Shown: piece after piece, positions 21,260-25,159 of the stretch
How the letters are laid out: each line of letters opens with the position of its first letter
Numbering within the stretch: the first letter of the stretch is position 1
The notes under the pieces: model-generated
Told to the model about the DNA's origin: nothing
The model's database searches: none
The model's input: only the letters and a program-made list of their open reading frames with translations
Made by a program: the position numbers and the translations under genes
From: Carnobacterium sp. CP1
GTDB lineage: Bacteria; Bacillota; Bacilli; Lactobacillales; Carnobacteriaceae
Direction of reading: 5' to 3'
Assembly (NCBI RefSeq): GCF_001483965.1
Contig: NZ_CP010796.1
Location: 558,001 to 622,000 of the forward strand
DNA: 64,000 nucleotides

Positions 21260-21955
21260 ATGGATTGGTATTATGAAGGAGAACGAGGACCTGAGCACTG
21301 GAAAGACATCTGCCAAGCTTTCAAAACAGCAGAAGAAGGCAGTTTGCAATCTCCCATTCAATTAAGCGAGAAAGAGGTCACAGACAAAATCAGTCAACAG
21401 TCGTTAACGATTCGTTACCATACGACACGTTTTGAGACTTCTTTTTTTAACCATACAGTACATTTGAGACCATTATCAGGGGGAGAGTTGAACTCGATTT
21501 TTTTTAATCACAAAAGATACATATTAGAGGATCTGCACTTTCACTTACCTAGTGAGCATGAAATCAACCATGAGTCTTTTCCATTAGAATTGCATTTGGT
21601 TCATCGTTCAAGAGAAAATGAATTACTCGTTTTAGGAATTACTGTCCTTCCAAACAAAGAGCCGGCAAATCCTGAAATGGCTCGTATGGATAGCCTAGCC
21701 TTAAACCCAAGAATTTCTGGGAGAGGGCTAGAAGTCCCCATAGATTTAGCTAATATTTTACCGGCCAAACAACAATTTTTTCATTATAGCGGGTCATTGA
21801 CGACACCGCCTACTTCTGGACCCGTTGATTGGATCGTTTTTCGACATCAAGCTTATATGCGCAAAGGTCTATTGCAAGCTTTCAAAGAGAACGTTGGTAA
21901 AACCAACCGTCCGCTGCAGCCTGCAGCTAATCGGCCTATTTTCTTATCTAAATAA
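21260..21955 (+). CDS. alpha-class carbonic anhydrase without signal peptide
   Basis: Interconverts CO2 and bicarbonate. The 231-residue protein starts directly in the domain (YYEGERGPEHW, LQSPIQL). The zinc ligands are visible in LHFHLPSEH (two His, about 93 and 95) and ELHLVH (third His). SGSLTTPPTSGPVDWIVF completes the active site. There is no signal sequence, whereas most bacterial alpha enzymes are exported, so a cytoplasmic location is inferred. AAAGGAG precedes the ATG. Confidence 0.92.
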   Translation: MDWYYEGERGPEHWKDICQAFKTAEEGSLQSPIQLSEKEVTDKISQQSLTIRYHTTRFETSFFNHTVHLRPLSGGELNSIFFNHKRYILEDLHFHLPSEHEINHESFPLELHLVHRSRENELLVLGITVLPNKEPANPEMARMDSLALNPRISGRGLEVPIDLANILPAKQQFFHYSGSLTTPPTSGPVDWIVFRHQAYMRKGLLQAFKENVGKTNRPLQPAANRPIFLSK

Positions 21956-21989: not shown

Positions 21990-22018
21990 TTGACACTTAT
22001 GAAAGCAACTAGTAAGAT
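21990..22018 (+). promoter_or_regulatory. promoter of the trpXYZ-type operon
   Basis: Consensus TTGACA (21990-21995) and TAAGAT (22013-22018) with 17 bases between. It starts a leader of about 415 nt. Confidence 0.75.
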
Positions 22019-22059: not shown

Positions 22060-22122
22060 ATGAATCCATTTTTACCTATCGCTATGAACTTAAATAATCG
22101 TTGGCAAAGCCAAGATAGATAG
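22060..22122 (+). CDS. leader peptide 1, 20 codons with one Trp codon
   Basis: A short ORF starting eight nt after AGGAG (22047-22051). The C-terminal part reads NLNNRWQSQDR, with Trp at codon 15. The Trp codon lies in a tight hairpin TTGGC-AAA-GCCAA (22101-22113). The next gene encodes a TrpX-type binding protein. The position, right after a promoter and before an attenuator, is that of a regulatory leader peptide. That it senses tryptophan is inferred. Confidence 0.7.
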   Translation: MNPFLPIAMNLNNRWQSQDR

Positions 22123-22147
22123 GTTGATTTATGAAGCTTCTTCATAG

Positions 22148-22300
22148 GTACAACCTTCAGGAAAGTTCTGAACTTGTATCTATGTTGGTTTATTTGAACA
22201 CACGTGAAAACGACCCACATAGAGTAAGACGTTTATTCTATGTGGAGTTGTTTAATATAAACAGCTACCACAAGTACTTTTGTGTAGCTGTTTATTTTTT
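22148..22300 (+). promoter_or_regulatory. transcription attenuator with competing hairpins upstream of trpX
   Basis: Four pairings are mutually exclusive in part. A: 22179-22189 with 22213-22223. B: 22215-22227 with 22233-22245. C (antiterminator): 22242-22254 with 22258-22271, 13 pairs, one bulge, loop ATA. T (terminator): 22257-22273 with 22280-22295, then seven T. A excludes B, B shares GTGG with C, and C shares its 3' arm with T. No T-box motif is present. Confidence 0.75.
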
Positions 22301-22344
22301 TACCATCATTATTTAAAATAATAGAGATAAAGGAGCAAAATAAG

Positions 22345-22398
22345 ATGTCTTTTCTTTTTATGAAACGATGGCAGTACTTGGAGAAAACAATTCAATAG
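22345..22398 (+). CDS. leader peptide 2, 17 codons, also with Arg-Trp-Gln
   Basis: A short ORF lying between the terminator and trpX, nine nt after AAAGGAG. It reads MSFLFMKRWQYLEKTIQ. Its RWQ triplet repeats that of leader peptide 1. It ends 41 nt before the trpX start, so it could control trpX translation or reinitiation. Function is inferred from position and the shared motif. Confidence 0.55.
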   Translation: MSFLFMKRWQYLEKTIQ

Positions 22399-22439
22399 GA
22401 ACGAAAGATTCTTTAACTACTTACTTTGGAGGAAAAAAT

Positions 22440-23426
22440 ATGAAAAAAATGATTGGGTTTATCAGTGTGTTAGCACTAATTTTAACGTTTGCATTTTTTA
22501 CGAACCAAACTAAAACAAACACAGCAACAAAAAAAGATTTGCCTATAGTAGGCGTCTTACAACTAACCAGCCATCCTGCGCTAGATTTGATTTATGAAGG
22601 TATTATCGATGCTCTAAACGAAGAAGGATTCATCGACGGAGAAACCATGACATTGGACTTTCAAAACGCTCAAGGCGACCAAAGCAATTTAAATTCTATG
22701 AGCGCTCGTTTCGTGAGTCGGAATACGGCAGTTATGGTGGGCATCGCCACCCCAGCTGCTCAAGCGCTAGCTAATAGTTCTCAAGAGATTCCAATTATTT
22801 TAGGAGCTGTCAGCAATCCTGAAGAAGCTGGGTTGGTTGCCAACAATGAAAAACCTGGTGGAAATATTACGGGTGTTAGTGATTTAACTCCAATTAAAGA
22901 ACAGTTTGAATTGATCAAGGAACTTTTGCCAGAAGCAAAAAAGATTGGCATTCTTTATTCATCCAGTGAAGACAATTCTATCGTTCAAGCTAAACAAGCT
23001 GCTGAAATTGCTACCGCTATGGGGTATGAAACAACTACTTTAACCGTTTCATCAACGAATGATGTGTCACAAGTTAGTTCTTCATTGGCCAGCCAAGTAG
23101 ATGCTATTTGGGTTCCAACAGATAATACTGTAGCCAGTGCTATGAATACCTTGATTGCAGCAACTGATGCTAACCACATACCGGTATTTCCAGCCGTAGA
23201 TACAATGGTAGAAGAAGGTGGACTAGCAACGATCGGTTTAAACCAATACGAATTAGGAAAATTAACGGGTCAAATGACAGCAGCTGTTCTTAAAGGCGAA
23301 AGCGATCCGGCAACAACGCCTGTGCAATACCTTGAGCAAGGAGAAATTATACTCAATGAAGAAAAAGCAAAGGAATTAGGGATTTCTATCCCGCAAACCT
23401 TGTTAGACCAAATGGCAAATCAATAA
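22440..23426 (+). CDS. trpX: TrpX-type ABC transporter substrate-binding protein
   Basis: Binds the ligand outside the membrane and delivers it to the permease. The ATG at 22440 is chosen because TTTGGAGG lies 7 nt upstream; a frame extension to 22368 has no ribosome site. The 328 residues begin with a signal sequence (KKMIGFISVLALILTFAFF) without a clear lipobox Cys, followed by PIVGVLQLTSHPALDLIYEG and GNITGVSDLTP, typical of the COG2984 family. Family members are predicted to carry tryptophan or tyrosine in Firmicutes. Followed by permease and ATPase genes. Confidence 0.85.
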   Translation: MKKMIGFISVLALILTFAFFTNQTKTNTATKKDLPIVGVLQLTSHPALDLIYEGIIDALNEEGFIDGETMTLDFQNAQGDQSNLNSMSARFVSRNTAVMVGIATPAAQALANSSQEIPIILGAVSNPEEAGLVANNEKPGGNITGVSDLTPIKEQFELIKELLPEAKKIGILYSSSEDNSIVQAKQAAEIATAMGYETTTLTVSSTNDVSQVSSSLASQVDAIWVPTDNTVASAMNTLIAATDANHIPVFPAVDTMVEEGGLATIGLNQYELGKLTGQMTAAVLKGESDPATTPVQYLEQGEIILNEEKAKELGISIPQTLLDQMANQ

Positions 23427-23458: not shown

Positions 23459-24349
23459 ATGGATTTAATTGTAACAGCAACAGCACAAGGTTTGTTATGG
23501 GGAATAATGGCTTTAGGCATTTTTATCACTTATCGGATTCTAGATTTACCGGATATGACAGCAGAAGGGTCTTTTCCTTTAGGAGCTGCTGTTTGTGCCC
23601 GATTGATCCTTTCAGGCGTTCATCCGCTGCTAGCAGCACTAGCAGCTTTTATTATTGGAGCTCTCGCGGGGTTCATTACTGGTTTTTTGATCACTAAAGC
23701 CAACATGCCAGGTCTATTAGCCGGTATTCTGACTATGACAGGACTTTATTCCATTAATTTACGCATAATGAACCGGGCGAATTTAAGCTTATTAGGCAAA
23801 CAAAAAATAACGGACTTATTAAGTCGATACAACTTGCCGCCTCAGTTTGATACAATCTTTATGGGCATCCTTCTAACGGTCTTGATTATCACTGCACTAG
23901 TCCTTTTCTTTAAAACCGAACTAGGCCAAGCGGTGATTGCTACTGGAGATAACGAAAAAATGGCACGTTCATTAGGAATATCGACTAACCGTACAAAAAT
24001 ATTGGGTTTAATGTTGTCAAACGGAATCGTTGCTGCAGCAGGAGCTTTGATTGCACAAGACAATGGTTATGCAGATATTAGTATGGGGATTGGTACCATT
24101 GTTATCGGATTGGCTTCCGTTATCATTGGAGAGGTCATCTTCGGGAACTTATCTTTTGCCAATCGTTTGATTTGTGTGATTTTAGGCGCTATTATTTATC
24201 GCTTCATCATTATGTTTGTCTTGCTAGTAGGTCTACAACCAAACGATTTAAAACTGATTTCCGCCATTATTTTAGCTTTCTGTTTAGCTTTACCAAGTTT
24301 AAGAAACAAACTGAATTTAAACTTTTTCAATAAAAAGGAGGTTCTTTAA
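23459..24349 (+). CDS. trpY: ABC transporter permease, TrpY type
   Basis: A 296-residue membrane protein with about eight to nine hydrophobic segments, in the branched-chain-type permease group (COG4120). It has TYRILDLPDMTAEGSFPLGAA near the N-terminus and GDNEKMARSLGI in the cytoplasmic coupling loop. It lies 32 nt after the binding protein and is directly joined to the ATPase gene. Substrate follows from the family (aromatic amino acid) and is not proven here. Confidence 0.85.
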   Translation: MDLIVTATAQGLLWGIMALGIFITYRILDLPDMTAEGSFPLGAAVCARLILSGVHPLLAALAAFIIGALAGFITGFLITKANMPGLLAGILTMTGLYSINLRIMNRANLSLLGKQKITDLLSRYNLPPQFDTIFMGILLTVLIITALVLFFKTELGQAVIATGDNEKMARSLGISTNRTKILGLMLSNGIVAAAGALIAQDNGYADISMGIGTIVIGLASVIIGEVIFGNLSFANRLICVILGAIIYRFIIMFVLLVGLQPNDLKLISAIILAFCLALPSLRNKLNLNFFNKKEVL

Positions 24350-25159
24350 ATGACAACGCCCGCAGTCTTATCGCTTCAAAATATCACTAAAACATTTTAT
24401 CCTGGAACAGCTAACCAAAACCAAGTTTTAAAAGGGCTAAATCTAGAAGTCCAACAAGGCGATTTTATAACGATCATTGGTGGAAACGGTGCTGGGAAAT
24501 CAACTATGTTGAATAGTATTTCAGGAAACTTTTTAATTGATCAAGGTTCCATTAAAATCGAAGGCAAAGAGATCACTAAATTAAAAGAAGAACAACGCGC
24601 AGGAATGATCGGGCGGGTATTTCAAGATCCCTTGATGGGGACTGCGCCGCGTATGACGGTTAGCGAAAATTTGTCCATCGCTTATCGGCGCGGAAAGAGA
24701 AGAACGCTACGAAAAGGCAGCTCTCTAAAAGAAAGAGAGTTCTTCAAAGAAATTCTATCTAAATTGGGATTGGGTTTGGAAAATCGTTTGGACAGTGAAA
24801 TGGGATTATTATCTGGTGGACAGCGTCAGGCTATAGCATTACTAATGGCTACTATGAAAAAACCAGAGTTGTTGTTATTGGACGAACATACTGCAGCGCT
24901 CGATCCTAAAACAGCAAAAATTGTTTTAGATTTGACAAATAAGCGGATTTCCGAAGAGCATCTAACGGCATTGATGATCACCCACAATATGCAAGATGCT
25001 TTAAATTATGGCAATCGTTTAATTATGTTGGATCAAGGAAAAGTAGTCGTGGATGTCAAAGGTGAAGAAAAAAACAATTTAACTGTCGCTACAGTTTTAA
25101 ATTTATTCCAAGTTTCAACAGAAGAAAGTGCTCTTTCAGATGAAATGATACTGGGGTAA
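24350..25159 (+). CDS. trpZ: ABC transporter ATP-binding protein, TrpZ type
   Basis: A 269-residue ATPase with Walker A GGNGAGKST (about 45-53), signature LLSGGQRQA (about 157), Walker B LLLLDEHTAAL and the switch His in MITHN. The DEHTAALD form is characteristic of COG1101. AAAAGGAGG precedes the ATG, which follows the permease stop without a gap. Completes the trpXYZ-type importer; a terminator follows at 25229-25280. Confidence 0.88.
   Translation: MTTPAVLSLQNITKTFYPGTANQNQVLKGLNLEVQQGDFITIIGGNGAGKSTMLNSISGNFLIDQGSIKIEGKEITKLKEEQRAGMIGRVFQDPLMGTAPRMTVSENLSIAYRRGKRRTLRKGSSLKEREFFKEILSKLGLGLENRLDSEMGLLSGGQRQAIALLMATMKKPELLLLDEHTAALDPKTAKIVLDLTNKRISEEHLTALMITHNMQDALNYGNRLIMLDQGKVVVDVKGEEKNNLTVATVLNLFQVSTEESALSDEMILG

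Follow-up and report, generated by a model that had tools for sequence, protein, structure and literature searches.

The window, a stretch of 64,000 nucleotides from Carnobacterium sp. CP1, carries the tryptophan transporter operon trpXYZ behind a leader that holds two short open reading frames, ORF1 and ORF2, with tandem terminators between them. The promoter, reading frames, and genes of the locus are as follows.

21990 to 22018, + strand: promoter TTGACA-17 nt-TAAGAT
22060 to 22122, + strand: ORF1, leader peptide MNPFLPIAMNLNNRWQSQDR and a stop codon, with a Trp codon six codons ahead of the stop
22329 to 22335, + strand: Shine-Dalgarno (SD) sequence of ORF2, AAAGGAG, 9 nt ahead of the ATG
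22345 to 22398, + strand: ORF2, MSFLFMKRWQYLEKTIQ, from ATG to TAG, with the invariant core CGATGGC at 22366 to 22372
22440 to 23426, + strand: trpX, tryptophan ABC transporter substrate-binding protein, NF041285 above the cut-off
23459 to 24349, + strand: trpY, permease of the trpXYZ operon, from permease-family matches below equivalog cut-offs and the operon position
24350 to 25159, + strand: trpZ, ABC ATPase of the trpXYZ operon, from a profile search and the operon position

TrpX was identified by an equivalog match to NF041285 (NCBIfam) of 457.6 bits, the cut-off being 390. ORF2, its own AAAGGAG, and its distance from trpX had been reported in an earlier, sequence-only reading of this DNA and were confirmed on the sequence, with 41 nt between the ORF2 stop and the trpX ATG (22440). 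In the relatives, boxes resembling TTGACA and TAAGAT were likewise visible 5' of ORF1. The gene at 21260 to 21955, 5' of the leader, resembles an alpha-type carbonic anhydrase (GSLTTPPTSGPVDWIVF) and had no NCBIfam match.

ORF1 and the alternative helices of the leader

We aligned the trpX leaders of 18 family genomes and of Atopococcus (n = 19) and found ORF1 in all of them. The conserved end of its peptide reads W-Q-S-Q-[DN]-R-stop, with the variants W-Q-N-Q, W-H-N-Q, W-Q-S-R, and W-Q-S-H, and the residue ahead of Trp is R, S, N, or D. From the end of ORF1 onward, the RNA can form a series of overlapping helices.

22121 to 22156, + strand: helix 1:2, AGGTTG (22121 to 22126) with CAACCT (22151 to 22156); 97% of cells paired in the 19 sequences, two pairs with double changes
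22143 to 22184, + strand: helix 2:3, which is P1 of the trpB motif; 93 to 96% paired
22179 to 22223, + strand: helix 3:4, the antiterminator, TCTATGTTGG with CCACATAGA; 88% paired, and also predicted by masked-ribosome folding
22215 to 22245, + strand: terminator T1 (helix 4:5); 98% paired
22259 to 22301, + strand: second terminator T2 (helix 6:7) with a U-run; five of the nine stem pairs show double changes

Together with helix 5:6, in which the 5' arm of T2 (CCAC) pairs with the 3' arm of T1 (GTGG; 97% paired), these helices were kept in 88 to 98% of cells across the 19 sequences; the inner stem of helix 1:2 was 86% paired. Double changes were seen in helices 1:2, 2:3, 4:5, 5:6, and 6:7, and one pair of helix 5:6 is T-A in 14 sequences and C-G in 4. 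In the tandem terminators (22215 to 22301), the 5' arm of T2 (CCAC, CCGC, or CCCG) covaries with the 3' arm of T1 (GTGG, GCGG, or CGGG), which suggests a domino of alternating helices.

The RNA 3' of a masked ribosome, parked on either the Trp or the stop codon of ORF1, was folded up to the point before the 3' arm of T1 is made. In the window, the predicted probability of the antiterminator was 0.96 with the ribosome on Trp versus 0.09 with it on the stop codon. With the ribosome on Trp, this probability lay between 0.90 and 0.96 in 18 of the 19 species (0.23 in G006), and with the ribosome on the stop it was 0.25 or less in 16 of the 19. Helix 1:2 was buried by the ribosome on the stop and free with the ribosome on Trp. 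The modelled ORF1 switch consists of mutually exclusive helices, the choice between which is set in silico by the position of the ribosome. At equilibrium, T1 formed in most species in either state, so control by ORF1 would have to be kinetic.

The same region matched RF04312, the trpB motif, in a permissive Rfam search (22141 to 22257, 43.9 bits, E value of 6e-5), below the gathering score of 59. The motif has been published as an orphan but strong riboswitch candidate, located mostly ahead of amino-acid ABC transporters, and its authors noted that classical attenuation could not be ruled out (PMC11109978, NAR 2024). It occurs once in this genome and in 136 of the 246 genomes of the order. 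Two members of the window's family reach the gathering score (66.3 in G008 and 59.2 in G012), and the window copy is built like the motif: a P1 hairpin whose right shoulder holds the antiterminator is followed by a terminator, all of it ahead of a transporter gene. The window copy is a divergent relative of RF04312 by orthology, and not a member by covariance score.

An order-wide set of 80 further leaders and the 20 best RF04312 loci was scanned for SD-preceded ORFs ending just 5' of the motif, and the removal by eye of five weak or odd matches left 95 leaders. Trp codons were present in 87 of them (L156, showing MQTRSVYSTQLNTAWKSWRSSLY, was entered by eye), about 8% being expected near the stop, and the first Trp mostly lies four or six codons ahead of the leader ORF stop. 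The remaining eight had Tyr and Phe codons at the corresponding position (NNYYFSYFR, NHFYFSYFR, NTFNFSYFR, HAYYYGYFG, NSFFFGFFR, and similar). Downstream of these Tyr/Phe leaders were aroE in three cases and TrpX-like binding proteins in five; the three of these five proteins that were tested scored 316 to 336 bits, below the 390-bit TrpX cut-off. Such a codon swap, accompanied by a change of the target gene, is what codon-reading attenuation predicts, and these ORFs, preceded by an SD and carrying codons for the regulated amino acid shortly ahead of the stop, have the form of leader peptides in ribosome-mediated attenuation. From these comparisons and the folding model, ORF1 is predicted to encode the leader peptide of an RF04312-related transcription attenuator. 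The role in transcription attenuation that the sequence-only reading gave to ORF1 fits both its Trp codon near the stop and the predicted exclusive helices. Aside from the trpB-motif paper, a search of a single literature collection found no report of this leader as an attenuator.

ORF2 ahead of trpX

Between the terminators and trpX, an SD-preceded ORF2 with an early Arg-Trp was present in 14 of the 18 family genomes and in Atopococcus (15 of the 19 leaders). All 15 ORF2s contain CGATGGC, that is, the Arg and Trp codons plus the first base of the following codon, located three to seven codons past the start. This genome and its sister G002 have identical peptides (MSFLFMKRWQ.. for ORF2). MEKKRWR[MFL].. 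is found in five species and MRQWTSQRWQS.. in two, while the types confined to single species are MIKLTKRWRSR.., MKKKVTKRWRNK, MEMKRWRFCW, MKSWIRRRWPS.., MKRRWHST.., and MEEQRVKRWRP... The ATG-to-CGA spacing ranges from 9 to 21 nt, and the length, the C terminus, and the tail differ greatly, with the frame being kept in every case. Basic residues are common ahead of Trp. Trp is followed by Q, R, H, or P, and of the codon for this residue just the first base, C, is fixed. Arg is encoded by CGA in all ORF2s (17% of the Arg codons in the window genes), and C follows TGG in 15 of 15 ORF2s versus 22 of 127 cases in the window genes.

Among 5,000 dinucleotide-preserving shuffles of the window stretch from the second terminator to trpX, 62 gave rise to an ORF that follows an SD and has Trp within its first nine codons, and none to such an ORF with RWQ; depending on the species, an early Trp in such an ORF arose in 0.2 to 11% of shuffles. 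Judged by sequence comparison, ORF2 is real and conserved. It is missing from three of the five congeners (G001, G003, and G004) and from one further family member (G008), in which it is apparently dispensable, and the TrpX tree is compatible with one gain and two losses.

The sequence-only reading had singled out the Arg-Trp-Gln shared by the two ORFs as a nascent-chain motif used twice, and had held that the loss of ORF2 or of RWQ in close relatives would refute it. Both ORFs proved conserved with a constrained Trp codon, but RWQ did not: it is literally present in both ORFs here, and the sister genome G002 is the only other one with RWQ in both, while ORF1 conserves W-Q-S and ORF2 conserves R-W. 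RWQ as a conserved shared motif was thus ruled out by the comparison of the 19 leaders, and by the standard that the sequence-only reading had set, the losses of ORF2 described above partly refute that reading. The location of ORF2 between the terminators and trpX, where translation of trpX could be affected, was borne out. On the aligned sequences, the part truly constrained in both ORFs is TGG-C. Order-wide, C follows the first TGG in 82 of 86 leader ORFs (22 of 127 cases in the window genes), giving the same TGG-C that is invariant in ORF2 of the window's family. Since the constraint is on the nucleotides CGATGGC and the chain is only four to nine residues long at Trp, the conservation of ORF2 speaks for decoding and not for a peptide motif. 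TnaC-type arrest has a conserved peptide motif whose position with respect to the arrest site is fixed, and none of this kind was found in ORF2.

The ATG within CGATGGC opens a 352-amino-acid frame in phase with trpX (22368 to 23426), from which gene callers could wrongly give TrpX 24 extra N-terminal residues. As a true start, this ATG was rejected: its phase matches that of trpX in this genome and its sister alone, it has no nearby SD, and it opens frames that differ greatly in length among the relatives.

A second ORF2 family was found in the trpX leaders of Alkalibacterium and relatives (f6), whose TrpX proteins form a separate, well-supported clade of the TrpX tree. In 12 of 13 of these leaders, an SD-preceded ORF with the pattern M(Q)(M)x[SA]DW[DEN]W and a free tail lies at the corresponding place (L142, L143, L149, L150, L152, L153, L154, L157, L165, L167, L127, and L128). 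RWQ is absent from it, and the surrounding residues and nucleotides are unlike those of the window's family, with Trp alone common to both. A Tyr/Phe version of ORF2 was sought in the paralogous leader L196 and was not found.

The position of Trp, taken as the first base of its codon (the first Trp in f6 and the conserved Trp in the window's family), is 45 to 79 nt ahead of the trpX ATG in 27 of 27 ORF2s of the two families, with a standard deviation of 6 to 7 nt per family. The first base of the stop codon, by comparison, ranges from -55 to +77 relative to this ATG (standard deviation, 28 to 44 nt), and coupling through the ORF2 stop codon was rejected as a conserved feature on these grounds. 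The leading edge of a ribosome parked on the ORF2 Trp would fall between -32 and -66 and so leave the trpX SD uncovered. No hairpin consistently sequestering this SD was found in either family, and a stall does not free the SD; a hairpin over the trpX SD that is opened by a stalled ribosome was rejected. With the trpX SD not hidden and the Trp position kept within a narrow range, an effect on ribosome traffic or occlusion, or on the life of the mRNA, is favored over a hairpin switch.

Proposed control of trpXYZ and its alternatives

The trpXYZ leader probably comprises two successive Trp-codon sensors of tRNA-Trp charging, the first acting on transcription and the second on translation. When charged tRNA-Trp is short, a ribosome would park on the Trp codon of ORF1 and leave AGGTTG free to pair with CAACCT; helix 1:2 would free segment 3 for the antiterminator, and T1 would fail. 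The freed 3' arm of T1 may also disrupt T2 through helix 5:6. When Trp is plentiful, the ribosome at the ORF1 stop would cover segment 1, allowing P1 and then T1 and T2 to form, and transcription would end. After read-through, ribosomes would start on ORF2 and, if Trp is short, park early on CGA-UGG-C, 45 to 79 nt 5' of trpX and off its ribosome-binding site. With Trp available, they would advance toward, into, or past this site and hinder initiation. The sequence comparisons support this reading through the conservation of both ORFs and their Trp codons, the geometry, the constraint at the nucleotide level, and the exchange of codons in ORF1; from these we infer that ORF2 is translated, that it stalls when Trp is short, and that the stall raises trpX output. 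Against it, the short ORF2s (MEKKRWRFY and a stop) have just 12 nt from Trp to the stop and would occlude the trpX site only weakly, and one Trp codon by itself senses starvation only modestly.

Tentatively, and with rather less confidence than we place in the two sensors themselves, ORF2 could be a hungry-codon sensor tuned at the level of decoding, in which the fixed context CGA-UGG-C lets one Trp codon respond with unusual sensitivity to the charging of tRNA-Trp. CGA, an Arg codon read by inosine, would then occupy the P site with Trp in the A site and C next. A peptide attenuator and a second, translational Trp sensor would thus be combined in one leader, an arrangement that would have arisen separately in the two families.

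It is possible, if rather unlikely, that the stall acts on mRNA life instead, protecting the 5' end of the read-through mRNA from a 5' exonuclease or from Rho and so prolonging the life of trpXYZ mRNA when Trp is short. Stalled ribosomes are known to stabilize mRNA in erm leaders, and such protection would explain why the early Trp codon alone is fixed and the stop is not; ORF2 also lies directly 3' of the T2 hairpin. The narrow spacing between Trp and trpX in both families would, however, be left unexplained. That the constraint is on nucleotides and not on residues would also suit an RNA or DNA signal (a pairing or a protein site) that falls inside an ORF by chance, but CGATGGC is invariably in frame behind an SD and an ATG, and no conserved complementary partner for it was found in the leader or in early trpX, which makes this account unlikely.

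Nascent-chain arrest by RW(Q) in the exit tunnel during translation of both ORFs, perhaps with free tryptophan as a coeffector, was the view of the sequence-only reading, and we now regard it as very unlikely. The literal RWQ in both ORFs and the basic residues common before Trp in ORF2 favor it, but the shared motif is confined to the two sister species, with ORF1 keeping WQSQ[DN]R and ORF2 keeping nucleotides; the variable residue after Trp, the short chain at that point, the SDW[DEN]W of the f6 ORF2s, and the Tyr/Phe leaders, which swap codons as codon reading predicts, all argue against it. Short ORFs ahead of genes can help initiation (PMC4833913), and many ORF2 stops lie 13 to 50 nt before trpX, so that ORF2 might simply boost trpX by translational coupling or reinitiation, the Trp codon being incidental. 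This is highly improbable given that Trp is kept in every ORF2 of the two families, while everything else, the stop included, varies.

If the reading of two successive sensors is true, a common orphan riboswitch candidate of lactic acid bacteria works as a leader-peptide attenuator, its codons revealing which amino acid it senses, Trp or Tyr/Phe, and some lineages have gained another ORF with a Trp codon immediately ahead of the transporter gene. This would be an instance of a rare two-tier control, best known from the anti-TRAP system of Bacillus subtilis. If the hungry-codon reading is true as well, a single mRNA gauges the supply of the amino acid twice.

Comparison with known systems

Helices 2:3, 3:4, and 4:5 of the window leader coincide with P1, the antiterminator (at the right shoulder of P1), and the terminator of the trpB motif, and the kinds of downstream genes are shared as well (amino-acid ABC transporters and sometimes trpB). 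The two differ in that the motif match begins 3' of the leader ORF; the leader ORF with its swapping aromatic codons is added here. Like E. coli trpL, which encodes a leader peptide with Trp codon(s) near its stop, the window leader combines such codons with mutually exclusive RNA helices, but it has one extra switching segment, and the stalled ribosome must leave segment 1 free rather than mask it.

In Streptococcus suis, trpXYZ is under a Trp T-box (PMC9382623). The operon and the signal, uncharged tRNA-Trp, are the same here, but an Rfam search found no T-box upstream of trpX in the window leader. A T-box is present at G000:C1:1596368-1596613, ahead of trpD...trpB, with TGG in the apparent specifier region, and on sequence grounds synthesis and uptake seem to be served by different tRNA-Trp sensors in this genome. 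Near both ends of the contig (G000:C1, about 14.8 to 21 kb and 2569 to 2585 kb), identical T-box and identical trpS scores were observed, which reflect either an assembly overlap or a duplication.

The leader of B. subtilis rtp (anti-TRAP) senses uncharged tRNA-Trp in tandem, at transcription and at translation (Chen and Yanofsky 2003, 2004, as cited in PMC11255114). As proposed for the window leader, rtp senses tRNA-Trp in two tiers on a single mRNA, with Trp-codon stalling in a short ORF just before the gene as the second tier, and such an ORF does lie here between the transcription control and trpX. The first tier differs, being a leader-peptide attenuator in the window and a T-box in rtp. 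The rtp leader peptide, rtpLP, has three consecutive Trp codons, and its stop keeps a short, fixed distance to the gene's SD. One conserved Trp codon is found in the window's family and two in f6, and the distance from stop to SD is not fixed, given the range of the stops. By analogy, the window leader would work like rtp without being a member of the rtp system, which is its nearest functional parallel.
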